From: Caldicellulosiruptor changbaiensis
Lineage (GTDB): Bacteria > Bacillota > Thermoanaerobacteria > Caldicellulosiruptorales > Caldicellulosiruptoraceae
Direction: 5' to 3'
Assembly: GCF_003999255.1 (NCBI RefSeq)
Contig: NZ_CP034791.1
Coordinates: 1,032,501-1,096,500 of the forward strand
DNA length: 64,000 nucleotides
The notes beneath the pieces are model-generated. The model had not been told where the DNA came from. It worked only from the letters and a program-made list of their open reading frames with translations, and did no database searches. Positions 2,881 through 58,826 of this stretch are shown piece by piece. Within the stretch, counting starts at the first letter, position 1. The number at the start of each line of letters is the position of its first letter. The translations under genes and the position numbers were made by a program.

Positions 2881-3796
2881 TTTTATCTACCACCCTTATG
2901 AAGATATCTTCCAGCGAGGGCTTTTTTAAATAAAAGGATAAAATGGGCTTATCTATCTGTGCCAATACTTTTATTAATTCTCTTTTTGCAATTTCAACAT
3001 TGTTAACATAAATTGAAACTTTCCCGTAGTTGTCAATATCGATTTTTCGAATATAAGGAAACTGAGACAATTTTTCTTCCAACTTGTTAGGAATACTTTC
3101 AAACTCAACACAAAAAACAGGTTGAATATATCGTTTTTGAAGGTTTTCTAAACTGTCACTGACAATTATTTTACCTTCATGCAATATTGTTACGTAGTCA
3201 CAAATTCTTTCAACATCGTTTAATATGTGTGTTGAAAAAAATACTGTAATTCCTTCTTCTTTCAAGGATCTTATATGTTCCAAAACTTCAGCTCTTCCTT
3301 CTGGGTCTAAAGAAGCGGTTGGTTCATCAAGAAGCAATAGTTTAGGCTTATTAAATATTGCGACAGCTATTCCAAGTCTCTGAAGCATTCCGCCTGAAAA
3401 AGTTGAGATTTTTCTTTTAGAAACGTTTGAAAGTTTTACAATCTCAAGGACTTCTTCAGTCCTCTTTTTAATAGTTCTACTTTCAAAATTGCAAATTTGT
3501 CCTATTAAGCTTAAATACTCAACTGGTGTGAGATAACCATAGAATACAGGATTTTGAGAAAGGAATCCAATTTGTTTCACTATGGCTTTTTTGTTTGCCT
3601 TAAAATTAAGATTGTCAAATAAGATTGTTCCTTCATCAAAACTAATTAGTCCAGAAAGAATTTTCATTGTGGTTGTCTTACCTGCTCCATTCGGTCCAAG
3701 AAAACCATGGATTGTAGCAGGTTTTACTTCAAATGATATGCCTTTTAAAGCTTTTACCTTTCCAAAGCTTTTGTGAAGATTTATCACTTTCAGCAA
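2867..3796 (-). CDS. ABC transporter ATP-binding protein, YxlF-like
   Basis: This 309-residue ATPase has Walker A GPNGAGKTT near residue 36, signature FSGGM near 136, Walker B LLLLDEPTASLD near 156 and an H-loop STHI. The C-terminal 80 or so residues form the accessory domain common in ABC-2 drug-export ATPases. The start is TTG, two bases after the stop of the PLDc_N gene; GGAAGAGAG just upstream is the likely ribosome site. It pairs with the permease at 2122-2880. Length and order match B. subtilis YxlF. Confidence 0.88.
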   Translation of the reverse strand: MLKVINLHKSFGKVKALKGISFEVKPATIHGFLGPNGAGKTTTMKILSGLISFDEGTILFDNLNFKANKKAIVKQIGFLSQNPVFYGYLTPVEYLSLIGQICNFESRTIKKRTEEVLEIVKLSNVSKRKISTFSGGMLQRLGIAVAIFNKPKLLLLDEPTASLDPEGRAEVLEHIRSLKEEGITVFFSTHILNDVERICDYVTILHEGKIIVSDSLENLQKRYIQPVFCVEFESIPNKLEEKLSQFPYIRKIDIDNYGKVSIYVNNVEIAKRELIKVLAQIDKPILSFYLKKPSLEDIFIRVVDKSDDI

Positions 3797-3798
3797 AC

Positions 3799-4005
3799 TT
3801 AATCACGCTCTCTTCCAAGTAACAAGTAAACTATAGGACCCACAAAGTTGAAAATAATTATTATTAGCGCCCACGTCCATTTTGGGAGATATTTTACTTT
3901 GTCATTTTTCAACTTAACAAGACAGAAAATCATAAGAACAAACTGCAGTACAATTACAGGTGTAAGCAATTTTAGCATTTCTTCTATATCCATATTTCCG
4001 AGCAT
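3799..4005 (-). CDS. Small PLDc_N-type membrane protein, YxlE-like
   Basis: This 68-residue protein has two hydrophobic segments (about residues 14-30 and 44-62). The second ends in the W-x(9)-FNFVGPIVYLLLGR pattern of the PLDc_N family, which is found at the N-terminus of cardiolipin synthases and in small negative regulators such as YxlE. AAAGGAG lies 9 bases before the ATG. In B. subtilis, YxlE helps to restrain SigY; that role is inferred here from the matching gene order. Confidence 0.75.
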   Translation of the reverse strand: MLGNMDIEEMLKLLTPVIVLQFVLMIFCLVKLKNDKVKYLPKWTWALIIIIFNFVGPIVYLLLGRERD

Positions 4006-4021
4006 CCCGAAACACTCCTTT

Positions 4022-4318
4022 TCAGTAAGTTGTTTTATTTTTATCTTTTAGAATTACCCTTGTGATAAGAAGATATATTATAAGACTGCTAGGAAAATTT
4101 AAAAGTCCAAATAAACCCCAGAGAAAATAGTATTTTTCGCCTCTGTTTTTAGCATCAAAGAATATATATACAGCCTGAGCCATCAATAAGAAGAATAAAA
4201 TTATCAAAAGACCCATTGATATTTTTTCATCAGAAAACTGCTGGACTAAAAAAAGCAAAAAGCTCAAGCAAATAGTAGCTGTAATGAGAAAAAATACAAA
4301 TGTTTTATTAATCTTCAT
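4022..4318 (-). CDS. Small membrane protein, YxlD-like position
   Basis: This 98-residue protein has three hydrophobic segments (about 8-26, 36-54 and 68-88). It starts with ATG in a 4-base ATGA overlap with the stop of the upstream gene, so translation is coupled. It holds the position of yxlD in the sigY operon but is longer than YxlD. I see no catalytic motif. It is probably a membrane partner in sigma-factor control, by context only. Confidence 0.6.
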   Translation of the reverse strand: MKINKTFVFFLITATICLSFLLFLVQQFSDEKISMGLLIILFFLLMAQAVYIFFDAKNRGEKYYFLWGLFGLLNFPSSLIIYLLITRVILKDKNKTTY

Positions 4319-4722
4319 GTTCTCACACCTTTCTCCTTAGATATCAATGATGCAGGGATTAAAATCCATGGCAACAGCGTTTCGAAAAGTATCTGAAGCC
4401 TTATGAAAAATCCAAAACCATTGATGTTAATTAGCAAAATATAAACGGATAAGATAAGAAAACTCAAAAGCAAAAATAGTAGAAGATTAACCTTTTCCTG
4501 CTTTTTGGCTTTTGCTTCTATTGCATCTTCAATGACTTTCTGGATATCTATCTTCACCAAAGGAAATTTATTCATAGGCTCAAGTTTGTTTTTTAAAAGT
4601 TTTAACTTTTTCTCAAGCAAAGTATTATCGCAATCTATTTTTTCTAAAACTTCATTTTCTACTTCTTCATAGTATTTATCAATAATTAAATTTTGAATTT
4701 TTTCACTCTTTTTTGTTTTCAC
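4315..4722 (-). CDS. Putative anti-sigma factor, YxlC-like position
   Basis: This 135-residue protein has a charged, helical N-terminal half (about residues 1-75) followed by two hydrophobic segments (about 80-98 and 110-128), the layout of a membrane-anchored anti-sigma factor. I chose the GTG at 4722 because AAAGGAG lies 9 bases before it; an in-frame TTG at 4746 has no ribosome site. It overlaps the end of the sigma gene by 20 bases. Sequence similarity to YxlC is not obvious by eye; the call rests on topology and position. Confidence 0.6.
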   Translation of the reverse strand: MKTKKSEKIQNLIIDKYYEEVENEVLEKIDCDNTLLEKKLKLLKNKLEPMNKFPLVKIDIQKVIEDAIEAKAKKQEKVNLLLFLLLSFLILSVYILLININGFGFFIRLQILFETLLPWILIPASLISKEKGVRT

Positions 4723-44828: not shown

Positions 44829-44857
44829 TTGACAAAGCACAAACCTTGTGCTAAAAT
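44829..44857 (+). promoter_or_regulatory. tRNA-Leu(TAG) promoter
   Basis: TTGACA (44829-44834) and TAAAAT (44852-44857) are 17 bases apart and lie 17 bases before the tRNA. Confidence 0.8.
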
Positions 44858-44959: not shown

Positions 44960-44994
44960 AGAGTAAAATCCTCTTGACAAGTGAGAAGGAAGAG

Positions 44995-45054
44995 ATTAAA
45001 ATATATAATTGCGATGCCGGAGTGGCGGAACTGGCAGACGCACAGGACTTAAAA
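44995..45054 (+). repeat. Left attachment repeat (attL), 60 bp
   Basis: These 60 bases are identical to 58716-58775. They cover the -10 region and the first 39 bases of tRNA-Leu(TAA), ending exactly with the anticodon loop. A TTGACA at 44974-44979 with a 17-base spacer to TAAAAT (44997-45002) shows that the original promoter is still here. Confidence 0.93.
45016..45054 (+). pseudogene. Truncated tRNA-Leu(TAA), 5' half
   Basis: The first 39 bases of tRNA-Leu(TAA), from GCCGGAG to the loop CTTAAAA, are followed by unrelated CTACCAAATATGG instead of the stem TCCTG. The complete gene is at 58737. The fragment still has a promoter but cannot make a tRNA. Confidence 0.93.
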
Positions 45055-45234
45055 CTACCAAATATGGATATAATTAGAAACCAAGAATTATCAAGGCTTT
45101 GAACATTTTAAATTTACACAATTGAGTAAAAAGGTCTGTTATGGTCATGAAATAAAAACAGGAGAACAAAGTATTATCCAAACGCAGCCACCAAACACCG
45201 AAAGAATAAAAGTAGGTGTGAGGTGGTTTTTATT

Positions 45235-46194
45235 ATGCCTAAACAACTCAAAGTCAACAATTCAAATTCAGATTGGGAAGACGCATTACAGCTTTTCTTA
45301 TCTTACAAAAAAGCACAAGGTAGAAGTGATTTAACGATTAGGGACTATGAACGTCACATCAGTTCATTTTTTAAACGTTACCCAGATTGTTTTAATGACA
45401 CAGAGAAGTTAAGAAAGTGTTTGATTGAGTATTTATCACAACCTATGAAACCAGTGACTTACAATCTAAGAATGAAAAACTTGAAAGCATTTTTGAATTG
45501 GTGTGTTGAAGAGGGTATTATTCCGACAAATCCCATTGCTAAATTCAAGCCAAGAAAGACAGATGACAGAATTGTTGAAATTGACATTGAAACACTTCAA
45601 AAGTTACTCCAGTTGCCAGATAGAAAGACATTTGCTGGTTTACGTGATTATGCATTGATGTTATTGACACTTGACACAGAAATAAGACCTAAAGAAGCCT
45701 TTTCATTGCTAAAAGACCATTTTGATTTTAAGAATTTGCAGGTTGTAATTCCTTCAGATGTGGCAAAGACAAGAGTATCAAGAGTGCTGCCAATCTCACC
45801 AGTAACAGCAAATGCAATTAAAAAACTCATCTCTTCAAGACATCCCCAATGGGATGACAGCGTTCCTGTATTTTGTTCAGTATCAGGAAAGCCTTTAAAC
45901 AGGTATAGATGGAATGAAAGAATGAGAGAGTATAGTAAACAATTAGGTGTGAAAATAAGACCATATGATTTAAGGCATATGTTTGCTTTGCTGTATCTCA
46001 AAAATGGTGGTTATGAATTGAGTTTGCAAAAGATAATGGGACATACAACATTGGAAATGACAAAAAAGTACGTCCACTTTACCCAGAAAGACCTACAAGA
46101 AATTCATGCAAAGGTAACACCGATTAACAGTTTGCTAAAACAACCCTTAAACAGGGTTGGAAATATAAAAAATCAAAATAAAAAGAAGGAGTGA
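45235..46194 (+). CDS. Tyrosine recombinase (integrase)
   Basis: The 319-residue protein has a SAM-like N-terminal DNA-binding domain (about 12-100, SDLTIRDYERHISSFF) and a catalytic domain (about 125-300). The first Arg lies in TEIRPKEAF (about 156), then RPYDLRHMFALLYL (about 240), in which Tyr takes the place of the usual first His of H-x-x-R, then MGHTTLEMTKKYVHF (about 266-280) with the second His and the Tyr nucleophile. GAGGTGG lies 8 bases before the ATG. Being about 180 bases from attL, it is surely the element's integrase. Confidence 0.92.
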   Translation: MPKQLKVNNSNSDWEDALQLFLSYKKAQGRSDLTIRDYERHISSFFKRYPDCFNDTEKLRKCLIEYLSQPMKPVTYNLRMKNLKAFLNWCVEEGIIPTNPIAKFKPRKTDDRIVEIDIETLQKLLQLPDRKTFAGLRDYALMLLTLDTEIRPKEAFSLLKDHFDFKNLQVVIPSDVAKTRVSRVLPISPVTANAIKKLISSRHPQWDDSVPVFCSVSGKPLNRYRWNERMREYSKQLGVKIRPYDLRHMFALLYLKNGGYELSLQKIMGHTTLEMTKKYVHFTQKDLQEIHAKVTPINSLLKQPLNRVGNIKNQNKKKE

Positions 46195-46202
46195 GTTTAA
46201 AG

Positions 46203-46532
46203 ATGTTATACCATTTTTATGATGAGGAAAGCAAAATAGACTTCTTTGTTGGCTACAGTGACGTGTTTAAAGACAATCAGGTTGCAGGTGGTGGTTGTTT
46301 AATTTTAGAGGAAATGGGCATTAAAAATGTTTATCTTCAAGTGAACAGAAAAATTGACAAAGACAAAAGAATAAAAGCGTGGTTTAAGCTATTAGAAGGG
46401 ATTGATAAGGCTTTAGGAATGTTACCATTTCAAAGTAGTGTTGTAAGAGTGTATGCCGACGAGGACAAGCTTTCAGGTGTAATTGCTGTAGTGGACGAAA
46501 AAGAAGACGCAGAAGTTGTTATGACATACTGA
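46203..46532 (+). CDS. Element-borne protein of unknown function
   Basis: This 109-residue protein begins MLYHFYDEESKIDFFVGYSD and contains VAGGGCLILEEMG (about 24) and VVRVYADEDKLSGVIAVVD (about 79). It is a soluble alpha/beta-like sequence with no motif that I recognise. ATG 46203 has AAGGAG 10 bases upstream. It follows the integrase within 8 bases, so both are probably one transcript, and it may be an accessory such as an excision factor, but this is a guess from position. Confidence 0.6.
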   Translation: MLYHFYDEESKIDFFVGYSDVFKDNQVAGGGCLILEEMGIKNVYLQVNRKIDKDKRIKAWFKLLEGIDKALGMLPFQSSVVRVYADEDKLSGVIAVVDEKEDAEVVMTY

Positions 46533-46805
46533 GACAAAAAAGTTGTATGCACAAGTTTAAAAGCAACCTGTTTTATGTAAACTTTGTCAAGTAGAACACA
46601 TGTTTGAGTATACCTTAATAGGGTATGGTATTAAGAAAAGAAATCAGCAATACCAAGCATTTGAATTGATAGCAAAATGCACAACAAAAATGTAGTATTC
46701 ACTATCATGTGACGTTATCACTACCTTTTATTTCAATAGTATCAAGCCTTTTAAAATAGTGCATTTTTCACAACACAGCTAAAAAATAGGGTTTTTTACA
46801 ACATT

Positions 46806-46816
46806 TGTGGTATAAT
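46806..46816 (+). promoter_or_regulatory. Extended -10 promoter
   Basis: TGTGGTATAAT, with TATAAT at 46811-46816, lies in the otherwise gene-free 46533-46940. A terminator follows 50 bases downstream. Confidence 0.55.
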
Positions 46817-46863
46817 AGTATATAGAAGGGTAAAAAGTGAACACGCAAAATTGAAAAAATTAG

Positions 46864-46908
46864 GCTGCCTTAAAGAAGTTTTAAAACTTCTTTGGGGCAG
46901 CTTTTATT
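46864..46908 (+). terminator. Terminator or attenuator upstream of XRE gene
   Basis: GCTGCC (46864-46869) pairs with GGGCAGC (46895-46901), with AAAGAAGTTTT/AAAACTTCTTT as the upper stem, and TTTTATTTTTG follows. It ends a transcript of roughly 85 bases from the extended -10 at 46811, or attenuates the XRE gene at 46941. The rest of 46533-46940 shows no gene. Confidence 0.75.
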
Positions 46909-46940
46909 TTTGAAAAACACTGGAAAGGAGTTGATTTGAG

Positions 46941-47154
46941 ATGACGAAATTAGAGTATTTGAAGAAACAGCATAATTTATCATCAGCAAAGCTATCTTTG
47001 GCAGCTGGTATCAATTACACTTTGTTGACTTCAATTGAAAGAGGGGAAAGAAAAGCATATCCAAAGGTAAAAAAAGAGATTGGCTGAGTTTTTCAATGTG
47101 GCAGAAGATGAGTTGTTCAATGAAGATGGGTCGTTGAAAGAGATTGAGGATTAA
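46941..47154 (+). pseudogene. XRE-family regulator, frameshifted
   Basis: From ATG 46941 (AAGGAG 10 bases upstream) the frame gives a helix-turn-helix (SSAKLSLAAGINYTLLTSIE) and then stops at 47087. Removing one A from the A7 run at 47069-47075 restores VKKRLAEFFNVAEDELF and an end at 47154, about 70 residues, closely parallel to the intact XRE protein at 47449. It is either broken by one extra base or restored by transcript slippage on the A-run. Confidence 0.8.
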
Positions 47155-47448
47155 TCTTTTTTCAAGTAACAATTGTGCAAAATCACGATTTTTAGAGGCA
47201 ATTTATAGCTTCCTAAAAGGAAAATCAGAAAGTAATTTAAGAAAAAAGTAGTTTTTTTCAAGCACTAAAACATTTGTGTAAAATATGATTGTAAGGTGAG
47301 TATAAAAGTGGGAAATTGTTAACAACTATGAGTTGTTTTGCTACACTATATTTAGGTTGAAGTAATTTTTAAAAAACAAGATATTGATGTTGCACATTAT
47401 TTTGAATATATTAAGTAGTGGTAATTAAAAAAGGAAGGAGTGATATTT

Positions 47449-47670
47449 ATGACAGTTTTAGAAAAAATTAGAAAAGACAAGGGATTATCTCAAAGCAAGT
47501 TAGGACTTGCTATTGGGGTCAATCCTAATATCCTTTCCCAAATCGAAAGGGGTTGGAGAAAGCCTTATCCCAAGTTGTTACAATCTTTGGCAGCATATTT
47601 TGGTATATCTGTCGAGGAGATAGCAAATCCTGATGGAACATTAAAAAAAGTCAACGACCAAATTGCATAA
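47449..47670 (+). CDS. XRE-family transcriptional regulator
   Basis: This 73-residue protein is a single helix-turn-helix: LEKIRKDKGLSQSKLGLAIG then NPNILSQIERGWRKPYPKLLQ and a C-terminal EIANPDGTLKK. It resembles the broken gene at 46941, so the two are paralogues. AAGGAG lies before ATG 47449. It probably represses element functions. The 295 bases before it are AT-rich with no gene. Confidence 0.88.
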   Translation: MTVLEKIRKDKGLSQSKLGLAIGVNPNILSQIERGWRKPYPKLLQSLAAYFGISVEEIANPDGTLKKVNDQIA

Positions 47671-47713
47671 AAAACGGTGGCTTTAAACCACCTAACAAAG
47701 TGGGGTGTTTGGA

Positions 47714-48046
47714 ATGGTTATGTATGCTTACAACAAAATTCTAAATAAAAAAGTTAAAGCAGGGTCGTTTGACGCAAAAACAAAAATTTTTAACAAAACA
47801 GTCAAACTAAAAAGCAAATGTTGGAAGTATAACACCTATGGTATAGAACAAGAAATTATCGACAAATTAAAAATGCTAGACTGTCAAGAAATTGTTATTA
47901 AAGAACAAGATACAGCCAAAGAATACCATATTCCCTTTAATGAATATATCAAACATGCTTTTGTTGATGTTTTAGGAAATTCGACACCGCAATATTATTT
48001 GTCATTGAAATACTTTACTTGCATAAACAAAAAAGAAGCAGTTTGA
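47714..48046 (+). CDS. Element-borne protein of unknown function
   Basis: This 110-residue basic protein begins MVMYAYNKILNKKVKAGSFD and ends with YYLSLKYFTCINKKEAV. It has no membrane segment, and I see no known motif. GGGGTG lies 6 bases before ATG 47714. It follows the XRE gene by about 40 bases and precedes the primase-helicase by 200 bases of AT-rich sequence, so it may belong to replication control, by position only. Confidence 0.6.
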   Translation: MVMYAYNKILNKKVKAGSFDAKTKIFNKTVKLKSKCWKYNTYGIEQEIIDKLKMLDCQEIVIKEQDTAKEYHIPFNEYIKHAFVDVLGNSTPQYYLSLKYFTCINKKEAV

Positions 48047-48248
48047 TATTGTATCGGGCGGTTGGGGGCGGGGATTTTATTTTAAAAAGGCAAAAACTTT
48101 TTATTATTTTTCACATTTTCACGTTAAACTTCACTACTTAAATTTTAAATCATTTATTTACAAAAGACAATATCTTTTTTGAAGTGTTAGCGTTAAATTT
48201 TGAATTAACACAAACAAATACAAATTAAGCAAATAGGGAGGGGTTGCA

Positions 48249-50060
48249 ATGCAAGGTATTGTAAAGGCAATCAAAGACAAAATAGACATTATCGACTACA
48301 TAGGAAGATACCTACCTTTGCAAAAGGAAGGTAGTAACTACAAAGCTTGCTGTCCCTTCCATCCTGATAAAAACCCATCATTCTACATTAAACCCAGCGA
48401 ACAGTTTTTTCATTGCTTTGGCTGTGGCGTTGGTGGCGATGTTATCAAATTTGCACAGCTTTACCATAAAATATCTTTTGGGGAGGCGGTAAAAATGTTA
48501 GCTGAGGAAATAGGCTTGTCTATTGGCAGCAAGCAAACAGAAGAAAACACGCAAGAAGAAAAGCCTTCTATTGACCAGATTATAGCATATGTCGAGACAT
48601 GCCATCAATACGCAAGTTTGACAAGTTACTTTGCTGATAGGGGGATTCCCACTTCTCTAATTGACAAATACAAGATGGGCTTTGATGTGGAAAACAATGC
48701 AATTGTTTTACCCATCTTTCAAGACGGGCAGATAATAAGCTATGTGCGTCGCAATCTTGATGATAACAAGCCACGCTATGAATTTCCTAAAGGACACAAA
48801 GGTATACCGTTTAATTTGGACATACTCAAAGACGACCTGCAAACTAACGTTTTTATCACTGAATGAATTTTTGACGCATTAACAATTGAAGCAGCGATTG
48901 GACAGCCAGCAATCGCACTAAATGGCTGCGAAAATCAAAGCGAGTTTATACAAACCCTAAATCGTATCAAACCACAGAACAAGAAATTTTACATCCTGTT
49001 TGACAACGACGAGGCAGGCAGCAAAGCAGCAAAACAACTTTTTGATAAGATGAAAAACCAGTATGAAGTGGCTATTTGCAGATGGGAAGGTGCACCTTAC
49101 AAAGACATCAACGAGTTTTTGCAAAACTCTCAAGACGAGTGTATAAAGTTTTTAAAATGGCAGCTTAAAGCGGCTTTTTATCCCTATGCACTCATTAATT
49201 TTGCTGCCCAGTATGTTGATTTTCTCAAGTCTGATAAATTCAAAGCTATTTCCACAGGATTTAAGCAATTAGACGATGTGTTAAATGGTGGTTTTGTAGC
49301 AGGAAACCTGTATGTCTTTGGTGCAAAGCCCAGCGTCGGTAAAACAACATTCTTGTTGCAGCTTATAGACAACTTCTTACAGCAAGGTTATGAATGCGTC
49401 TTCCTATCGGCTGAAATGCCCAAAGAAGAGATTTTGACAAGGATTTTCTGTCGTGAATATGGACTCAAAAAAGTTAATGTTAAAGTAGCTGGATTCGATT
49501 TTTATCGAAAACTTAGAACAAGTACAGCAACTCAAGAGGAAATGCAAGAGTTCATGTCTGTTATGCAAGACTACATCATGCGTTATGCTTTCAAGCTTCA
49601 CATTTTAGAAGGACAAAGACTTGACGAGGTCTATTATGTCCTTGACCGCTTGCAAAAGCCTATCCTGTTTGTTGATTACTTACAGCTTTTGCAACCAGCA
49701 AAACCATATCAAAGCGATAAGCAAAGAGTTGACCTGATAATGCAAGAGTTGTTTGAGATTAAAAACAAGTTTTTAATCCCAGTTGTCGCTATCAGCAGCT
49801 TGAATAGGGAAAGCTATGACGACGATGATATAAAAGCTTTCAAAGAATCTGGGTCAATTGAATATGGAACAGCAGCCGCTTTCCTAATGAAAAGAGATGA
49901 CGACAAACCTATTCACGATGACTACAAAGGCAATGGTTATACAATCAAATTCAATTGTGTCAAAAACAGATATGGCAGCATAGGAGAAAACATCACAATG
50001 AGATTTTGGGGCGGGATTTACTTGTTTGAAGAAATAGCCGACAATGACAACAGCTTATAA
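48249..50060 (+). pseudogene. Primase-helicase with one in-frame UGA
   Basis: The frame runs 603 codons with one stop, TGA at 48864-48866 (codon 206). Before it is a DnaG-type zinc finger (CPFH about 36, CFGC about 56) and the start of TOPRIM. After it the same frame continues with IFDALTIEAA, FDNDEAG (TOPRIM metal site) and a DnaB-type helicase (Walker A GAKPSVGKTT about 358, Walker B ILFVDYLQLL about 475). The TGA replaces the conserved Gly of TOPRIM EG, one base from GGA. It would be the replicative primase-helicase of the element, like phage gp4. No ribosome site precedes the ATG at 49050, so the second part is probably not translated separately. Confidence 0.88.
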
Positions 50061-50136
50061 TCCAAACACGCTGCCTTGTACGGTAATCGGCAAGGCGGCG
50101 TGGTAAAACAAAAACCACAAATAGGAGGGGTCAAAA

Positions 50137-50940
50137 ATGATGAACAGCCAAAACAATGAAAACTTTTACATCACAGACGCAAACTTGCCTATCAACATCT
50201 TTTCCCTATTGGAAGACAGTATACAACCACGGCAAGGGCGAGAATGCAAGCTTGTTTATGAGTATGAAACAAATGACGGCGGCAAAGTACAAATCGGTAC
50301 AAACTACTACATGCTAACACCAGCCGACATAAACACATTATACATCTTGACCACCTATAGGCAGGAAACAGGACAGACAGGAGATACTTTTGAAATACCG
50401 CTAAAGTACATCATGGAGAAGCGAGGAATGGATGTAAACCAACCAGAAAATATTAAGCTGGTCTTGCAATCACTTGACCGTTTAATGATGACAAAAGTTG
50501 TTGTGGAAAGATACGGTTTTGCTAATGGAAAAGAATTTAAGCGGGATATGGCAAAGTTTGTGCTTTTGCCTTCCTATCGCATATCACAGAAAGGCAGCAA
50601 AGGGCGGGGATACAAAACAAAGCTTACTGTAACACTTGCTAAAGAAATTTGTCGCAATTTAGATAATGGCTATGTTGCACGTGGAGATTTGGACGTTGCA
50701 AAACAGCTTGTTAAATACAAGATAGCACACAGGCTTTATCACTTCCTAATGGGAAAATGTACACGCAACAAGACCTACAAACGCAACTTTGCACAGTTTG
50801 TGCAACAAGATATTTGCCCAGAACTACCATTAGAGGAAGGCAAAGAAAAGGTAATAAACGCACTTATAAAACTGGAAAGCATGGGTCTAATAACCTACAA
50901 AATTGACAGGAATATTATCTGCATAAATATACGAAAATAA
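50137..50940 (+). CDS. Putative replication initiator (Rep)
   Basis: This 267-residue protein has a central and C-terminal pair of winged-helix-like regions (YYMLTPADINTLYILTTYRQ about 68-87, KYKIAHRLYHFLMGKCTRN about 200-218, LIKLESMGLITYKID about 246-260), similar to iteron-binding Rep proteins of the TrfA/RepA kind. The strongest support is the four 23-bp iterons that begin 42 bases after its stop. AGGAGGGG lies 6 bases before the ATG. The alternative is a general plasmid-encoded DNA-binding protein. Confidence 0.65.
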   Translation: MMNSQNNENFYITDANLPINIFSLLEDSIQPRQGRECKLVYEYETNDGGKVQIGTNYYMLTPADINTLYILTTYRQETGQTGDTFEIPLKYIMEKRGMDVNQPENIKLVLQSLDRLMMTKVVVERYGFANGKEFKRDMAKFVLLPSYRISQKGSKGRGYKTKLTVTLAKEICRNLDNGYVARGDLDVAKQLVKYKIAHRLYHFLMGKCTRNKTYKRNFAQFVQQDICPELPLEEGKEKVINALIKLESMGLITYKIDRNIICINIRK

Positions 50941-50981
50941 TTGCATAAGTATACAAGAAAAAACGGCTGGTATCGATTGGA

Positions 50982-51069
50982 AAAACCATAGTATATACCT
51001 ACAAAAAACCATAGTATATACCTATGAAAAACCATAGTATATACCTGCCTAAAACCATAGTACGCAAAA
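50982..51069 (+). repeat. Iterons, four copies at 23-bp period
   Basis: AAAACCATAGTATATACCT starts at 50982, 51005 and 51028 without change, and a fourth copy at 51051 keeps the first 12 bases. The period is exactly 23 bases. Each full unit contains the palindrome GTATATAC. They lie directly after the Rep-like gene and probably are its binding sites at a plasmid origin or in copy control. The stretch 51070-51239 has no gene. Confidence 0.9.
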
Positions 51070-51239
51070 TAAAGAATGCAGATAGGACAAGGCTTTGCGG
51101 GCACAAAAACGGGTAAAATTAAAATTAAAATTAAAAGAGAGAGTTTTACAACTCTCTCTATTAGCTAAAAATTGGTTTTGTATTTATGCATATTCCCCAT
51201 CTGCATGAATTTACAAACTTACAACTGGAGGTGTGCGTC

Positions 51240-51950
51240 ATGCGACCATGGGAGTGGCTTTCCCTAATCGAAAAGCCAGAAAATCTTGAAAGTAATGTTG
51301 GTGTTGCTGTTGGCTTGCCGACGTTTGCGGCTGGTAGGAAAGGCAAGATTGAAACAGTGTTTGTTAAGCAAGCCGACCAAAACAAGCAAGTCAGCCGCAC
51401 AATCCGACTTATGACTGAACTTGAGATAAGGGAACTTGCTGCCAAGCAAAAGCCTCCCTACTTTGCAAAGCTGAAAAAGAAGGCTTATGACAGGCAACTT
51501 TGCAGCAAGGAAGGGCATTTTTGGGCAATGTTAGAGAGGCTTTCTCAAGAGTTTACAAAGAAGAATCCTAATAAACTTGACCTGCGGCTTTGGGCAAAGT
51601 TTGTAAAGTGTGCACAGCGAGACTGGGAAATCGAAAAGCTGCAATCTTCCCTAAATGCAAAGTGTCCTGTATGTGGCAGCAAGGATTTTGAGTTTGCCGA
51701 GAAAGGACAGGAAAAAGGCTTTGTGTGTTTGCCGTGTTTAAAGGCAAGTGGCAACGTTGATTTTATAGCTTGTGTGTTAATTGAAAATGATGTGCCAGAG
51801 TGGGAAAATCGTATAACATTGGGGACTGGGGAACTTGTTCCTAACAGTTTGTGTACACGTTGCGGGCAATCTTTTAAATGGTTTAGTAGCGATGATTGGG
51901 AAGGCTGGCTGTGTAGTGGTTGTGGAGAAGAATTCTATTCTTTGGGATGA
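51240..51950 (+). CDS. Zinc-ribbon protein of the element
   Basis: This 236-residue protein has two C-terminal cysteine clusters: CPVC with CLPC (about 142-164) and CTRC with CSGC (about 206-227), each a zinc ribbon. The N-terminal part (MRPWEWLSLIEKPENL, about 1-130) is not recognised. GGAGGTG lies 7 bases before ATG 51240; an earlier ATG at 51186 lacks a site. It is perhaps a DNA-binding or repair accessory of the plasmid; no partner is evident. Confidence 0.65.
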   Translation: MRPWEWLSLIEKPENLESNVGVAVGLPTFAAGRKGKIETVFVKQADQNKQVSRTIRLMTELEIRELAAKQKPPYFAKLKKKAYDRQLCSKEGHFWAMLERLSQEFTKKNPNKLDLRLWAKFVKCAQRDWEIEKLQSSLNAKCPVCGSKDFEFAEKGQEKGFVCLPCLKASGNVDFIACVLIENDVPEWENRITLGTGELVPNSLCTRCGQSFKWFSSDDWEGWLCSGCGEEFYSLG

Positions 51951-52043
51951 ATTAGTACTTGCTGGAAGTGAAAAATGTTTAGAGAATCCCAGACATTTAA
52001 ATTAGCCTACCCATCGGGGTTTTAAAAACAACAGCATACAAAG

Positions 52044-52068
52044 GCAGCCAATAATGGCTGCTTTTTTG
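52044..52068 (+). terminator. Rho-independent terminator
   Basis: GCAGCCA (52044-52050) pairs with TGGCTGC (52055-52061) around four bases and TTTTTT follows. It ends the transcript of the zinc-ribbon gene. Confidence 0.85.
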
Positions 52069-52244
52069 TTTTAAAAACACATCAATAACAAAAGACAAAC
52101 GGTATAATGTCAAGGGGGTTTTTTAAAAAATTTTTTTAGATAATTAGGGCAAAAAAGACAATAAAATACCGAGCCGCTCAGCATGGAAAAATTTAACTGG
52201 CAGCTTGTTTGGGAAAGATTATTAAATTAAAAAATTGGGACTAA

Positions 52245-53490
52245 CTAAGTATTGTAAACATCACCTCTTTCTTGATATATTTGACCTTTGCTGAGCATGG
52301 CAAAGATCAAAGGAATTAAGCGTCTTGCGGTTAGGACGAGGGCACGTTTATGCTGATGCTTGGTAACCTCTGAGAACTTCTTGTTGTAGAAGGCTTTGTA
52401 GCGTACTGTGTGCACCCTTACACAGTTAGCAGCTTCAACAAGATAGTATCTCAGGTATTGGTTACCACACTTAGCTAATGAGACATCTTGGGCATTGAAG
52501 TTGCCTGATTGGTACTGAGTCCAAACAAGGCCAGAATACTTTGCCAAAGCAGCTTCATTTTTGAAGCGCTTGATATCACCGATTTCAGCGATGATGCCGG
52601 CTGCAAGAACATCTCCTATGCCAGGGACGGTTGTTAATGTTTGAGAGAAAGCTTTAAGAAGTTTTGAGATTTCTTTGTCGAGTTTTTTAAGTTGTTCTTG
52701 CATAAATCTAATGTTTTCAAGGGTCATAGACAAAGCTAAGTCATTTGCCTCAGCCAACAGAGGATGTAATCTGTATGAACGCTTGAGCCTCGGTTTTAAG
52801 TATTTCAGCGATTTTATTGACATCTGAGAGTCTATTGTTGCCGTTATCGGATACGAATTTAATTAAGTCTTCTAAAGGCATAGAAGCGATATCATCAGGT
52901 GTAAAGTTTTCGATGATAGCACAAGAAGCTTTACCGAAGATATCTGAAAATGGACAGTCTTGAGAATAAGTAGAGAATTTAAGGTATATGAGATTGAGAG
53001 CTCTGTTTTTTTCGCGAGTTAGATTGTGAACAAGATGATAGCGCATTCTGGTAAGGCGTTGTAGTGCAGCATATTTAAAATCAGGCAAAGGTGTTGGGTT
53101 GAGTTTGCTGAACCTGACACATTCAGCGATGATAATTGCATCGATGCTATCTGTTTTAGGCAAGAAAGTGTAGATTTTTTTGAAGCCTTTGACTATGCTT
53201 GGGTTGAGAACATAAAAAGTTGGTTTATATGGCAGCAGTTCAGATGAAGAAGCAAGATACAAGTGCAGATGCCAAGCGTAATGTGAAGTTGCTTCCATGC
53301 CAAACTTAATACAGGATAGATTATACTGGCTGAGGCAGTCAATAACTCTTTTGATTAATTCGTTAGCGCCTTCTTGATCATTAGGCAAGGAAAAAGGTTT
53401 TTTAATCAAGTGATTACCGGCATCATCGATGAAGAAGATAGAATTTGACTGACTACTGATATCAATGCCCACGATTAAAGTATTTGGCAA
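52245..53490 (-). pseudogene. IS110-family transposase, frameshifted
   Basis: Two frames together make one IS110 transposase. The first (start ATG 53490, 246 codons) has the DEDD RuvC-like domain: GIDIS (about 9), GMEATSHYAW (about 63) and KTDSIDAIIIAE (about 113). The second, in another frame, has the C-terminal Transposase_20 part with TVPGIGDVLAAGIIAEIGDI and the active-Ser region. The frames cross near 52778-52790, where removing one T (minus strand GCGTTCATAC) would restore ASYRLHPLLAEA. It is therefore inactive unless slippage occurs. Confidence 0.85.
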
Positions 53491-53554
53491 TTTGAAGACC
53501 TCCTTTTTGCAAGTAGTGGTAAGAAAAAGTGTTAAGCCCTTTATCCTTGGGGAT

Positions 53555-53690
53555 TACATGTAATGCAGCCTCGCCGATATTAGAGCTACGGAGCAGTTTA
53601 CAGGGTGCACACATCTGATATGCTCAAATCAGATGTGGTAACCTGACCGTGCACAGCAAACGAGTAAACATTACTCATGTAATCCTTTGG
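53555..53690 (-). ncRNA. Structured non-coding end of the IS110 element
   Basis: The region just upstream of the IS110 transposase has no gene but strong pairing. GGATTACATG (53561-53570) pairs with CATGTAATCC (53676-53685), enclosing a perfect 10-bp hairpin, CACATCTGAT/ATCAGATGTG (53610-53619 and 53628-53637), and other GC-rich stems. In IS110-group elements the 5' non-coding end encodes a bridge RNA that directs target and donor choice, so this is a candidate. The exact RNA limits are not known. Confidence 0.55.
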
Positions 53691-54045
53691 GGTTCAGTCT
53701 TTCGCAAGCTGTGGCGTGCAGATGTCAAAGCACGTCCAGCAGGAGGTGTTCAAAATATATCCAAATAAACTAAATCAGGCTTAAACTTTTTCTGATTTTA
53801 GTTTACCAAAGATAAAGGGCAAATTTAAACTGTAGCAGTCAATTTTAATATTCAATTTTTGAGAAATGAGTGTTTTAAGAAAGGTGCATTATCAAAATGA
53901 ATTTCCAGTAATCAATTGGTACTGATAATTAAATGTACCAATTGAGATATGAAGTTTTAAGTGATTTGATAATCATATTATACGAGCATTCCTGTAATGA
54001 ACGAAAATGAGTGAAAATGAAGAGAAAAGAGATTTGAAAAGATAA

Positions 54046-54113
54046 GGTACCTCCTGATAAAATTAATAAAGTAAGTTGTACAACTTACGAAAAAACACAA
54101 CAAAGGAGGTACC
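54046..54113 (+). promoter_or_regulatory. Ribosome-site-masking hairpin of IS1111-type transposase
   Basis: GGTACCTCCT (54046-54055) is the perfect complement of AGGAGGTACC (54104-54113), which is the transposase ribosome site. Between them is an 18-bp perfect palindrome, GTAAGTTGTACAACTTAC (54071-54088). A transcript entering from outside would hide the ribosome site, a known way for insertion sequences to limit transposition. Confidence 0.7.
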
Positions 54114-54117
54114 CTCT

Positions 54118-55404
54118 TTGAAGTATACACAAAATGAAAAGATATTACAAGTCACAGAAAGAACTTTAGTTGTAGGAGTAGATATAGCAAAGGAAAGGCA
54201 TGTTGGTAGAGCATTTGACTTCAGAGGAGTGGAGCTTGGTAAGAGAATAGAATTTGAGAATAGGAAAGAAGGTATGGAAAAATTTCTGGATTGGGCAAAT
54301 AAGATAATGAAAGCAAATGGCAAGGAGAGTATGATAGTTGGGATAGAACCTACAGGGCATTACTGGCTGTGCTTTGAGCAGTACTTAAGAGAGAATGGCA
54401 TAAAAGTGGTATTAGTGAATCCTTTTCACGTGAAGAGGAGCAAGGAGCTTGATGATAACACGCAAACTAAGAGTGATATAAAGGATCCGAAGACGATAGC
54501 AATGCTTGTGAAGGATGGAAGATACACAGAACCAAATATACCCGAGGGTATATATGCTGAGATGAGAGTAGCGATGAACATATATGAAAGGCTTCAAAAA
54601 CAGCTGAATGTTTTAAAAAATCAAATAATCAATTGGCTTGATATATATTTTCCAGAGTTTTTAGGAGTATTTTCTGATTGGGAAGGCAAGACAGCAATAG
54701 CGACGCTGAGAGAAATGCCATTGCCTTGTGATGTAGTAGGGAAGGAAGTAGAAGGGATTATAGAGTACTGGCGTGACAAAGTAGATAAGCGAGCGATTAG
54801 TCGCAGGAGGGCGATGGATTTAACAGAAGCTGCCAAAAGAAGTATAGGTAAAAAAGAAGGTAGAAAGCTGGCAAGACAAGAGATAAAATATTTGCTTGAA
54901 GAATATGAGCTTTTAAACAAGCAAGTAGAAGAGATAGAAGCCGAGATGGCAGAGCTTTTGAAAGAGGTGCCGAATGGCGATAAGCTTCTTGAAATAAAAG
55001 GTGTTGGAGTGAAGACAGCAGTTGGATTTATTTCAGAGGTTGGAGATATAAAGAGGTATGAGGATTCGAAGCAGATACAGAAATTAGCGGGACTCAATAT
55101 AGTTGAGAATAGTTCTGGCAAGTACAAGGGTCAGACGTGTATAAGTAAAAGAGGGCGAGGAAGGCTCAGAAGTAGCTTGTTCAAGGCCATGATTACAATA
55201 GTAGCAAAGAATGAAGAATTTAAGCAGCTGCACAGGTATTACACCACGCGAGAGAACAATCCCTTGAAGAAGAAGCAATCATTAATAGCACTGTGTTGTA
55301 AATTGATAAGGGTGTTTTATGCGATTTTGAAAAAAGGCGTAAAGTATGATGGGAACAAGATGTTGAGCGATATAAAGAGAGAGGCTTTAGCAAGGACAGC
55401 GTGA
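54118..55404 (+). CDS. IS110-superfamily (IS1111-like) transposase
   Basis: The 428-residue protein has the DEDD domain: VVGVDIAKERHVGRAF (about 17), GIEPTGHYW (about 75) and SDIKDPKTIA (about 118). A coiled region follows (about 245-280), then Transposase_20 with LLEIKGVGVKTAVGFISEVG (about 295-314) and the active-Ser SSGKYKGQTCISKRGRGRLR split near 340-360. TTG 54118 has AAAGGAGG 7 bases upstream. The gene is intact. About 580 bases of structured non-coding DNA follow, as in the IS1111 group. Confidence 0.9.
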   Translation: MKYTQNEKILQVTERTLVVGVDIAKERHVGRAFDFRGVELGKRIEFENRKEGMEKFLDWANKIMKANGKESMIVGIEPTGHYWLCFEQYLRENGIKVVLVNPFHVKRSKELDDNTQTKSDIKDPKTIAMLVKDGRYTEPNIPEGIYAEMRVAMNIYERLQKQLNVLKNQIINWLDIYFPEFLGVFSDWEGKTAIATLREMPLPCDVVGKEVEGIIEYWRDKVDKRAISRRRAMDLTEAAKRSIGKKEGRKLARQEIKYLLEEYELLNKQVEEIEAEMAELLKEVPNGDKLLEIKGVGVKTAVGFISEVGDIKRYEDSKQIQKLAGLNIVENSSGKYKGQTCISKRGRGRLRSSLFKAMITIVAKNEEFKQLHRYYTTRENNPLKKKQSLIALCCKLIRVFYAILKKGVKYDGNKMLSDIKREALARTA

Positions 55405-55471
55405 AGTGAAGCGAAGTGAGAAAAATTGCTTGAACATTCTTAGTTTAAAGCAGGAGAAATAGTTTGAGTGA

Positions 55472-55860
55472 TTCACATCTTGAGGGGGTAAAGAAATTCT
55501 TAGCTTTGCGAGGAGATTAAGTCATGTCGAGTAGCAAAGCGCCCCTTTTAATAATAGTTCACATCTTAGAAAATGTATTGATGGTTAAGAAATGAAGGAG
55601 AAAGGATTAAATGATTTTTTATAGAAAGTAGATTGAAAAATGTGAGCGGGTGGTCAGAGTACATCCTCCATACGGGCGAAGACCCTGCATACGAGCATAA
55701 CTGACGTCCACGCCATGGTAGATGGGACGAGGGAATTGAGGGCAAGTGAGAAAAGACCCTGAGAGACATGAGAGGGTAAACACCATGGTTGTTGTGGATA
55801 GATACCCGCCGTAATATGGTAGAGCAACAAGATAAATACAAGAGAGAGGCTGAGTCTAAG
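55472..55860 (+). ncRNA. Structured non-coding 3' end of the IS1111-like element
   Basis: No gene is supported in 55405-55985. GCTTTGC (55503-55509) pairs with GCAAAGC (55534-55540) inside a GGGGG/CCCC outer pair (about 55483 and 55542), and TTCACATCTT is repeated at 55472 and 55558. Further on come GGGCGAAGACCC and ACCCT/AGGGT hairpins and two CCATGG palindromes. In IS1111-group elements the bridge RNA is encoded in the 3' end, so this stretch is a candidate. Limits are approximate. Confidence 0.5.
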
Positions 55861-55989
55861 CTAGGTATGGTAGAATAAAGCAATAATAACAATATCAAGA
55901 ACAAAATTATTTGTTTCGATAGCGAATTTTAAAGAAATCGCGAGATATTTTGAGAAAATCAAAGGTATATTGAGAGAGAGGTGTTTTAA

Positions 55990-56226
55990 ATGATATGGAT
56001 TTTAGCTTTGTATTTTATTACTCTTTTAGTCTTTCTACCAGCTTATTTCTGGTACAAACGAAAAGATATTGTTTGTTCACTTCAACACAGCTTGTTTTTG
56101 GCAATTAGTGCTATGTTTGACAATGTGTTTTTAATTGCAGCTGGGATTTGGGTTGTGATTATTTTAACAGTGTCTCTAATTGGGCTAATACAAACAAACA
56201 GAAAACAAAGGGGGTCTTTATCATGA
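55990..56226 (+). CDS. Small two-span membrane protein
   Basis: This 78-residue protein has two hydrophobic segments (about 2-20 and 45-68) and a basic end (NRKQRGS). GAGGTG lies before the ATG. Its stop overlaps the next ATG as ATGA. No family is recognised; it is a plasmid-type accessory. Confidence 0.6.
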   Translation: MIWILALYFITLLVFLPAYFWYKRKDIVCSLQHSLFLAISAMFDNVFLIAAGIWVVIILTVSLIGLIQTNRKQRGSLS

Positions 56227-56384
56227 TGACAAAAACAAAGAGAAATTACATTGATGAGTGGTATTTTTTCAAAAACGACAAGGGTAAAATTCAATACCAT
56301 TCTCTTTGTGAGAAGTGTAAAAACAATTGCAAACAGAGTTTTAGAGTGAAAGAAATACATTGTCCAAAATATATTGCCAAGTAG
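56223..56384 (+). CDS. Small cysteine-rich protein
   Basis: This 53-residue protein begins MMTKTKRNYIDEWYFFKND and contains CEKCKNNC followed by a distant Cys, a likely metal site. AAAGGGGG lies before the ATG, which overlaps the stop of the membrane protein gene by four bases, so the two are translated together. A terminator follows. The function is unknown. Confidence 0.6.
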   Translation: MMTKTKRNYIDEWYFFKNDKGKIQYHSLCEKCKNNCKQSFRVKEIHCPKYIAK

Positions 56385-56387
56385 TAA

Positions 56388-56422
56388 GAGACCACCTTAG
56401 TTGTGGTCTCTTTTCTTTTTTT
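56388..56422 (+). terminator. Rho-independent terminator
   Basis: GAGACCAC (56388-56395) pairs with GTGGTCTC (56403-56410) around seven bases, followed by TTTTCTTTTTTT. Confidence 0.88.
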
Positions 56423-57102
56423 AGCCACTTTGTAGAATTGCATACCCCACCAGTTTGAAATGTGCTTAAAAACTGAATGTGGCAGGGAAAATAAAGGTAG
56501 TAGCAAAAACAAAATCAAAAGTTGATAGAAATTATCAAATCAAAACTTTAAAGTAAATTATAGCATAGATTAAGTTTTAAGACTTCAAAAATTCAAGCAG
56601 CATTTATCTTCTAAATCAAGAAAAAGTAAAATAATGGAATTCAAGAATTTATTCATGTTGTGAATGTCAATCTATTTGATTGGTTTACTTTAAATTGTGC
56701 TAAATGGCTTGAAAATTGAAGGTTGGTAATTAAATACATTAACAGATTATCCACTGCAAAGAATTATTATGCACTAAACTTTGAATAATTATGAAAATCA
56801 ATTGCCAAAGATAAATTTAGAATAAAAGCCTTAAATTAAGCAAGCTAAAAATAAAAAGAAATTAAACTTGAACAAAGAATTTGTGCAGCTTAAAACAAGT
56901 ATTTCTTATTCTAAACAGCAAATAAGATTTAAAGAATCACAGTTAAAATTTTAAAAACCTGGACTTTATTTTGCATTGTTCTTTGTGGTCTAAATGTGGT
57001 TATGACTTATTTTATCCTGCCCACATCTTTTGAGTCAAATCTATTCTTTGGCTGCTGATTTTAGCTTGACAAATTAGTCATGAGATTTTTAAAAAATATC
57101 AT

Positions 57103-57210
57103 ACGAAAAAAAACGAAAAAAGGGTAAAAAGTCGGTTGACATTGGAAATATCAAGGCTTTTAAGACATAGCCCTTTTACGAAAAAAGAACGAAAAAAGTA
57201 CGAAAAAAGT
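57103..57210 (+). repeat. ACGAAAAAAG short repeats
   Basis: ACGAAAAA occurs at 57103, 57113, 57178, 57189 and 57200. The last three are at an exact 11-base period, close to one DNA helical turn, which suggests phased A-tracts (bent DNA) or protein sites. Confidence 0.75.
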
Positions 57211-57758
57211 CCAAAGGCATGTCATTTCTATGTTTGTGGTAATTCTCATTGATTTTACAAAGTATATTCCCGATTTTAAGGCTGAAAATCTAAAGTGTAT
57301 TTGGAGTTATCAAGATTTTAAAATACAGCCTCATAGAGAAGCGAAATTTTGAAAGGTGGTATAAAGATATTACCCAGCTATTTTTTGAAGCTTATAAAGG
57401 CTTTATACACAAATCTTATTGTGAAAATGGCTTTTATTGTAGATGTATCAAGGTTTTGCAGAAAATCATTTCAAGTTAAGCAGTATCAAGGTTTTGACAG
57501 GATTTTTTACTTTTTGTTTTTGGTTATCTTATAAAGGTATCCCTAACTTATGAATACCTTGGAACATTTTTGAAATTTCAAAAACCATAGCGAACATATA
57601 GCGAACAAAGTTAAGGGTAGTATAAAAATATTACCCATTGAATTTTGAATCAAAAGAAACAGATTTCAAAGGATTTTGTTTTGAAAAATTGCCTTTGAGA
57701 TTAGAAGTATCAAGGAATAGAAGGCAATTTAATTCTAAACAAGCAATATCAAGACTTT
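57149..57758 (+). repeat. TATCAAG-type dispersed boxes
   Basis: TATCAAGGCTTT (57149), TATCAAGATTTT (57308), TATCAAGGTTTT (57446 and 57484), TATCAAGGAATA (57708) and TATCAAGACTTT (57747) all lie on the plus strand. An identical TATCAAGGCTTT lies at 45089, 35 bases inside attL. They could be arm-type integrase sites or sites for another element protein. Confidence 0.65.
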
Positions 57759-58715
57759 TCAGGTTTTGTTGTAAAATGGTATTTGTAATATAGGGACTGA
57801 ATTGTTATGTTATGGTGTGAAGGTTATAAAAAACTGGTGAATTTAAAAGTAGGTTACCTTAATTGGTTGTTTGGATATTGATTTGAGATAGAGAAAGACA
57901 GGATTGAATTTGGATGGTATAATGCGACATTTTTGCGCAAAATGGGTAAACCTTGATTGGGTATTAGGTTTACACATCCAAGCCTTGAGAGATGGCTAAT
58001 TGAGGATGATTTTCAATTAGGAAAAATAGGGTCAAAGTGTGCTATTTTGTAAGTGGTAAAGAAGGAGATAGGGCAGTTTACAGAACAGAAAATAAATTAC
58101 AACAAAGATGATAATTAGCATTTGGAAAGCCAAAACCATGGCATAGTAAAACAAATAAGGTGGCATTGTAAATTTATGTTTGCACAAAATAGCAATTTTG
58201 TGCAATGTTAAAATGTGGCAATTATTTAAAGTCAAAAGCTTTTGGTTTTAGGAAAGTTTATTCAATGGTTGTGTTATAGGTTCGCAAGTTGCGAGGTCGT
58301 CAATAGTGTTTGGATATGTCAAACTGCCTTTTCTTTGGTCTTTGTTTGCAAATAGAATTGATTTCTGGCAGCAATTAAAAGGAAAGTAAAGCCATGAAGC
58401 AGCCAAAGGCAAGGGGTAGGGGGCAAGAATTTGAAGAAGGTTCTTTGTTGCGTGCTGCCTTTAGCCGATATTTTGAAGCATAAAATTGGATGTTATGATA
58501 TGCTGTTATGGCAACAGATAGCAATTAAACACAAACAAATTTTCTCTATTGAGAATTCTTTACTTTGGGGTTAAACTGATAACGAACAAACCATACAGGA
58601 TTTTTGAATGTTTTAATTTGAGAACACTTAAAAGTCCTGTTCGGTAAATGAGTTTTTTAAAGGTGTTTGGTGGTTTTTGCGAGTAAAAAAACTCTTGACA
58701 ATGCTTGAAAACCCT

Positions 58716-58775
58716 ATTAAAATATATAATTGCGATGCCGGAGTGGCGGAACTGGCAGACGCACAGGACTTAAAA
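58716..58775 (+). repeat. Right attachment repeat (attR), 60 bp
   Basis: Identical to 44995-45054. It covers the -10 region and first 39 bases of the intact tRNA-Leu(TAA). TTGACA at 58695-58700 with a 17-base spacer to TAAAAT (58718-58723) gives a complete promoter whose -35 and spacer come from element DNA. Confidence 0.93.
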
Positions 58776-58826
58776 TCCTGGGACCTGAATAAGGTCGTAC
58801 CGGTTCAAGTCCGGTTTCCGGCACCA
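58737..58826 (+). tRNA. tRNA-Leu (TAA anticodon)
   Basis: A complete 90-base tRNA with acceptor stem GCCGGAG/TTCCGGC, anticodon loop CTTAAAA, a long variable arm, T-loop TTCAAGT and encoded CCA. Its first 39 bases lie inside attR and are duplicated at 45016. Confidence 0.97.

Follow-up and report, generated by a model that had tools for sequence, protein, structure and literature searches.

A tRNA-Leu-integrated island of Caldicellulosiruptor with a predicted double-winged-helix initiator, 23-bp-period iterons and a probable relationship to phage satellites

Introduction

What kind of mobile element places a putative replication gene directly before perfect short direct repeats inside a bacterial chromosome? 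This question is raised by a locus in a 64-kb stretch of Caldicellulosiruptor changbaiensis DNA (hereafter the window), for which a preliminary description, made from the letters alone, had proposed an integrative plasmid with an iteron origin. It bears on practice as well as on classification, as the pBAS2 replicon (PMC3643907) is one of those on which Caldicellulosiruptor genetics depends. Here we define the ends of the element, compare it with related islands in other genomes, model the fold of its putative initiator (Rep) and weigh the alternative readings of the locus.

Results

Island ends and the tRNA-Leu target site

Two 60-bp perfect direct repeats bracket 13,721 bp of the window (Table 1). 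The site of this island (44995-58775) is empty in nine congeners, and the joined flanks match the empty site of three relatives (G004, G010 and G003) end to end at 94-96%, indicating a clean site-specific insertion. A genus-wide search for the 42-bp core of the att repeat returned a single copy in nine genomes and two copies in the window genome (G000), G002 and G011, and no other copies of this tRNA 5' sequence were found in the genome when up to 2 mismatches were allowed. The tyrosine recombinase, the perfect att repeats and the empty sites bear out the earlier description of a chromosomal element with an integrase, to which exact ends are now added.

The three top-scoring promoter-like sites in this region, all TTGACA-17-TAAAAT, start at 44829 (before tRNA-Leu(UAG)), 44974 (before attL) and 58695 (before attR). 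The tRNA-Leu(UAA) promoter has its -10 element within the att repeat and its -35 element beyond it, so that an integrated island supplies the -35 of the reconstituted gene. The host promoter at 44974 would then face int after integration, reading into the left end of the island, and the island site at 58695 seems to provide the intact tRNA-Leu(UAA) gene with a promoter in place of the host's own.

Table 1. Features of the island and its borders (window coordinates).
Feature	Position	Strand	Support
Chromosomal promoter-like site of tRNA-Leu(UAA), TTGACA-17-TAAAAT	44974..45002	+	11/12 match; function inferred
attL, 60-bp perfect repeat, 5' part of tRNA-Leu gene (truncated copy)	44995..45054		
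Tyrosine recombinase (integrase)	45223..46194	+	PF00589 E 2e-26, phrog_1 E 6e-45
113-aa protein, common to other tRNA-Leu elements	46191..46532	+	no family match
Cro/CI-type HTH gene, frameshifted; intact (70 aa) in G011, G002	46942..47154	+	
Cro/CI-type HTH regulator, putative repressor	47440..47670	+	PF01381 E 8e-12
u113b, small protein kept in 8/8 elements	47705..48046	+	
Primase-helicase: CHC2 zinc finger, TOPRIM, DnaB-type helicase	48249..50060	+	PF01807 E 8e-34, PF03796 E 1e-31
GC-rich inverted repeat between primase-helicase and rep, kept in five elements	50067..50102	+	
Rep, predicted tandem winged-helix replication initiator, 267 aa	50137..50940	+	models m80a685b2f8cc, m015cd2f847ad; Foldseek; VIA
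Iteron 1	50982..51000	+	
Iteron 2	51005..51023	+	
Iteron 3	51028..51046	+	
Iteron 4, partial	51051..51062	+	
AT-rich tract (TAAAAT)n, candidate DNA unwinding element	51114..51136		TRF
Perfect 10-bp hairpin, terminator-like on minus strand	51136..51159		
Zinc-ribbon protein, kept in 6/6 Caldicellulosiruptor elements	51240..51950	+	
Inserted IS110-family DNA	52096..55974		PF02371, PF01548; alignment breakpoints
Island-borne promoter-like site, TTGACA-17-TAAAAT	58695..58723	+	11/12 match; function inferred
attR, 60-bp perfect repeat, over 5' part of intact tRNA-Leu gene	58716..58775		
tRNA-Leu(UAA) gene, reconstituted	58737..58826	+	ARAGORN, Rfam

A family of related islands

A first search of 121 genomes identified Rep homologues in six further genomes and at a second locus of the window genome. 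Of these seven loci, four belong to other Caldicellulosiruptor genomes and two to Caldanaerobacter subterraneus DSM 13054 (G024) and Thermoanaerobacter thermocopriae JCM 7501 (G036); a metagenome-assembled contig (L011) carries one additional Rep locus. Extending the search by profile to 37 class-level and 398 phylum-level genomes brought in no further credible close member, and the weak phylum-level matches L028-L031 were discarded as unrelated (a Crp-like regulator, aspartate carbamoyltransferase and others). Counting the window island, the eight islands measure 7.6-13.8 kb, share the order int - HTH - u113b - primase/helicase - rep - iterons and without exception lie between perfect repeats, 43-120 bp long, in a tRNA-Leu, -Trp, -Arg or -Ser gene. 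The 25-kb contigs of G024 and G036 were considered as circular plasmids and rejected, as they have no terminal overlap and carry housekeeping genes around the tRNA-Ser island, and are chromosomal.

We refer to the window island as own1 and to the second island of the same genome, situated in tRNA-Trp (L016; G000:C1:868500-888000), as own2; the latter carries TerS-like and sigma genes, and its iterons are unlike those of own1. Divergent accessory genes with C-terminal CxxC-type motifs were also seen on the minus strand between int and the HTH gene at L012:9920-10978, and minus-strand CxxC-type genes occupy matching places in own2, G006 and G009. Past attR of the G009 locus (L017, from 16218) there is one more integrase gene, which is split, and a further gene on the minus strand; they are probably what is left of another island inserted in tandem at this tRNA-Arg.

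Comparison with these relatives suggests that the window copy is probably impaired. An in-frame TGA at 48864-48866, beside the TOPRIM glutamate and with the same frame on either side, breaks its primase-helicase, a gene that is intact in own2, G004, G006, G009, G011 and G024 and broken differently in G036; the window copy is therefore probably not a fully functional replicon. To this are added the frameshifted second HTH gene and an insertion, missing from the G002 element at the same site, that holds two IS110 copies (52245-53490, with a split reading frame, and 54076-55404); without these two copies the island would measure about 9.8 kb. The copy may depend on own2, or may be dead. In none of the eight islands did we recognise a gene for a large terminase, a capsid or, among the main ORFs, a relaxase, nor any partition gene in the window element; a genus-wide search for Mob_Pre relaxases gave no signal but its controls were silent too, which makes it uninformative.

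Iterons and origin anatomy

The repeats following rep consist of three identical copies of the 19-bp unit AAAACCATAGTATATACCT and a fourth, partial unit of 12 nt, AAAACCATAGTA, spaced at exactly 23, 23 and 23 bp, in agreement with the preliminary description. With a TRF score of 129 this is the top tandem array of the 64 kb, and 34/36 positions match at period 23 in comparison to at most 26 in 300 dinucleotide shuffles. The 2.9-Mb genome contains exactly three copies of the core ACCATAGTATATACC, all of them in this array, so that the repeats were found beside rep and not near unrelated genes. Elsewhere in the genome, ACCATTGTAAATACC is a dispersed repeat with exact copies at six places (e.g. 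G000:C1:504349 and 955926).

The palindrome GTATATAC, earlier ascribed to each unit, is present in the three full units and absent from the partial one, and relatives have GTATGTAC and GGAATTAC; it is thus incidental and was dropped as a key feature. The conserved feature of the repeats is the 23-bp period. Period-23 repeats were found at the rep end in 8/8 elements and after the Rep gene of contig L011 as well, and are co-inherited with rep in all homologous loci. Units are alike inside one element, which would follow if every copy were recognised by a single protein, and different between most elements. According to the bases that precede an AGTA..TACC-like half, the iterons fall into the classes CCAT (own1 and G009), TCGT (own2), TCGC (G004 and G006), GCGG (G011) and CTGT (G024 and G036).

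After the rep stop codon the iterons are followed by a spacer, the (TAAAAT)n tract and a hairpin. The tract is the lowest-GC stretch 3' of rep and has comparable tracts in other elements, and the hairpin keeps 10/10 pairs in the five closest elements, with compensatory changes at 3 of them. The inverted repeat upstream of rep possibly serves in its control. In close relatives the origin has weak TTATGC/GCATAA motifs on its flanks, and inspection by eye revealed no clear DnaA consensus box. The locus displays traits of an iteron theta replicon, namely two winged helices (by prediction, see below), direct repeats in helical phase and an AT-rich candidate unwinding region.

Comparison of own1 with G011 indicated how this region may evolve. 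The two elements occupy the same site and their integrases are 98% and their primase-helicase DNAs 88% identical, yet nucleotide similarity is absent over 50033-51192 and returns at 51193. As the gap covers rep, iterons, AT tract and hairpin, initiator and origin were exchanged as one cassette. In G002 the whole replication module has been exchanged for a DnaB_N/AAA_25 helicase.

Predicted fold of Rep

AlphaFold models of the window Rep (mean pLDDT 68) and of its Caldanaerobacter homologue (pLDDT 72) both contain two predicted winged helices, and the best Foldseek match of both was RctB domains 2-3 (E 1e-9 and 1e-8). A VIA comparison of the Rep model gave Z values of 11.6 for RctB and 8.6 for RepE. 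Whole-chain superpositions were loose, with an rmsd of about 9-12 Å, and the first winged helix (WH1) alone fitted RepE to about 2.6 Å over 97 residues. The suggestion that a gene with winged-helix-like segments precedes the repeats is thus supported by two family models, in which the anticipated RepE-like match was found with RctB ranked above it and a fold lacking winged helices was not seen.

Sequence comparison placed the protein less readily. The window Rep matched no Pfam or NCBIfam family, the initiator families Rep_3 (PF01051) and RPA (PF10134) included; the Rep of locus L007 likewise has no Pfam family, and that of L011 gave one unrelated match at E 0.15. A phmmer search of Rep against the PDB returned chance matches to LptA only (E 0.1 or more), and no homologues were found in plasmid collections, phage collections or viral contigs. 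One strong match was obtained in a viral fold library, to an uncharacterised phage protein. A weak profile link (E about 1e-4 to 1e-6, C-terminal half only) connects the Rep family to L027, an RPA protein (PF10134) adjoined by repeats of 21-bp period. Rep resembles the Rep_3/RepE and RctB initiators in its predicted tandem winged helices and in the iterons beside its gene, but differs in having no detectable sequence similarity to them and no Pfam match. In the light of these missing matches, we describe Rep as a protein that would work like, yet is not filed as, Rep_3 or RPA.

Rep residues that track the iteron class

With iteron classes defined from DNA and not from protein, the variable Rep columns that track them among five close Reps are 98, 101, 102, 103, 106 and 184. 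Five of these six columns fall in residues 98-106 (hypergeometric 1.2e-5; scan test 3e-5), although with five sequences and neighbouring columns that are not independent this correlation with specificity is a lead and not proof. In the model, residues 98-106 correspond to the turn and the start of the second helix of the predicted WH1 helix-turn-helix. Overall Rep identity does not follow the iteron classes (own1-G009, 89.8%; own2-G004, 94.4%). As own1 and own2 reside in one genome with different iterons, such a difference would avoid incompatibility between them.

TerS-like genes in the relatives

A TerS-like gene is present in five of the eight islands (own2, G004, G009, G024 and G036), all of which are without TerL. 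These genes belong to two unrelated PHROG groups: in G024 and G036 a phrog_2538 member (E 1e-10 in G024) is followed by an ArpU-like regulator (phrog_36, E 1e-20), and in own2, G004 and G009 a phrog_1206 member (E 7.5e-8 in G009; 1.2e-5 in own2) is followed by a sigma-70 region 2 protein. The gene is absent from the window copy, G011, G006 and G002, with a remnant of the sigma gene kept in G006. The TerS-like protein of the G009 island is 44% identical to the product of a gene that, in a prophage of the same genome, directly precedes those for TerL, portal, scaffold and major capsid. This prophage (L042; G009:C1:909000-928900), a candidate helper, possesses tape-measure as well as TerS, TerL, portal, scaffold and capsid genes, and a search of 12 Caldicellulosiruptor genomes found its type of TerL in no other prophage; a TerL of this kind was not found in the window genome.

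Further Caldicellulosiruptor loci (L036, L037, L038, L040, L041, L043 and L044) hold an intact or broken TerS-like and sigma pair with no TerL in the stretch read, and are probably further satellite lineages; some of them carry other replication genes. L039 (G007:C2) is the free C. bescii plasmid NC_012036.1 of 8,291 bp, in which the pair lies at 3117-4658 beside a Prim-Pol/AAA_25 protein and is 63% and 82% identical to that of own2. This plasmid may be a satellite in the plasmid state.

Discussion

Satellite, plasmid or remnant

Our analysis makes it highly probable that the locus belongs to a family of islands that replicate, and we hold this more firmly than the narrower reading, itself reasonably probable, that window positions 44995-58775 are a tRNA-Leu(UAA)-integrated island of a phage-satellite-type family resembling the phage-inducible chromosomal islands (PICIs). 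It is the homology of TerS together with the PICI-like gene order that favours phage satellites. Counting against this reading are the lack of a TerS-like gene in the window copy, G006 and G011, the single iteron set, the failure to find Rep homologues in the phage and plasmid collections or a G009-type TerL in the window genome, and the loose superpositions and moderate pLDDT of the Rep models. The preliminary reading as an integrative plasmid is consequently not retained in that form, as the gene set and the relatives are PICI-like and five of the eight islands carry a TerS-like gene with neither TerL nor capsid.

The closest competitor is nevertheless a plain integrative iteron plasmid that excises and replicates but is passed on by transformation or accidental transduction; the TerS-like genes of its relatives would then be cargo or have some other role. 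For such an element a Rep-iteron-AT origin, an integrase and att sites would suffice, own1, G011 and G002 do without TerS, and the related gene pair on the free 8.3-kb C. bescii plasmid means that the pair alone does not prove a satellite. We consider this reading unlikely, though deserving of real weight, given that five of eight close relatives have a TerS-like gene paired with a sigma- or ArpU-like one, that these TerS-like genes come from two unrelated PHROG groups, that one of them is homologous to a prophage TerS adjoining TerL, and that partition and relaxase genes were not recognised in the element.

Decay of a temperate prophage with loss of its structural genes could account for the phage-like Int, HTH and primase-helicase genes and for the pseudogenes and IS copies of the window island. 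This is very improbable, as the eight islands are separate insertions into four kinds of tRNA gene and yet agree in their short gene order and small size, and the primase-helicase is intact in six; independent decay to one gene set is unlikely. Hardly credible at all is the proposal that the repeats are merely transcriptional operators and the 267-aa protein a repressor: winged helices do occur in regulators and the repeats, besides following rep, precede the zinc-ribbon gene, but the best fold matches are the replication initiators RctB and RepE, a primase-helicase gene and an AT tract adjoin, and repeats immediately 3' of rep recall the PICI and SGI1 origins (PMC6092414, PMC7433901).

Relation to known systems

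PICIs are laid out as int, regulator, pri, rep, an origin 3' of rep and terS; their origins have two iteron sets on either side of an AT tract, and TerS is found in some but not all of them (PMC6092414). The islands described here agree with PICIs such as the SaPIs and EcCICFT073 (PMC6092414) in the terminal integrase, the regulator, primase, rep, the origin 3' of rep, TerS in some members, a specific att site, small size and the lack of recognised capsid genes. They differ in a primase fused to a DnaB-type helicase, a separate RctB/RepE-like Rep without a Pfam family, one 23-bp-period array in place of two iteron sets, genes mostly on one strand, and thermophilic Clostridia as hosts. As the two flanking iteron sets are missing, we call the islands PICI-like and do not file them as PICIs.

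Salmonella genomic island 1 is likewise an integrated island in which rep is followed by four direct-repeat iterons and AT-rich stretches, and was shown to replicate after excision (PMC7433901); unlike the window island it has 17-bp GC-rich iterons, a RepA_C-type Rep and a conjugative helper plasmid. The Vibrio cholerae PLE is a phage satellite with its own plasmid-like initiator and iteron origin, and differs from the window island in its RepA_N-family initiator, large serine recombinase and dependence on ICP1 (PMC7145576).

A proposed cycle and its significance

From the arrangement of these parts we propose the following cycle. Int would recombine the 60-bp att sites to give an excised circle, and Rep, as a RepE/RctB-like double-winged-helix protein, would bind the iterons of 23-bp period that directly follow its own gene. 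Melting of the adjacent (TAAAAT)n tract would allow the island's own primase-helicase to be loaded for theta replication, a step at which the intact primase-helicase of own2 might serve the window copy in trans, and in the integrated state the HTH protein would hold replication off. In the TerS-bearing relatives the replicated DNA would be packaged by the large terminase and capsid of a helper phage.

Our more specific proposals are tentative: that the islands form an undescribed satellite family of extreme thermophiles with a new family of double-winged-helix initiators, that rep-iteron pairs are exchangeable cassettes whose specificity is retuned through residues 98-106, and that the tRNA-Leu promoter is taken over. 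If true, tRNA-Leu islands splice in their own -35 and capture the promoter of the host's only recognised tRNA-Leu(UAA). The islands further suggest that extreme thermophiles harbour a satellite-phage economy, of which a limited literature search found no report. In addition, a compact thermophile origin with a natural range of rep-iteron pairs could yield compatible vectors. Residues 98-106 matched to a variable 4-bp iteron core would, if the proposal holds, let two islands share a cell without incompatibility. The family is in addition a natural experiment on shifts in the DNA specificity of an iteron initiator.
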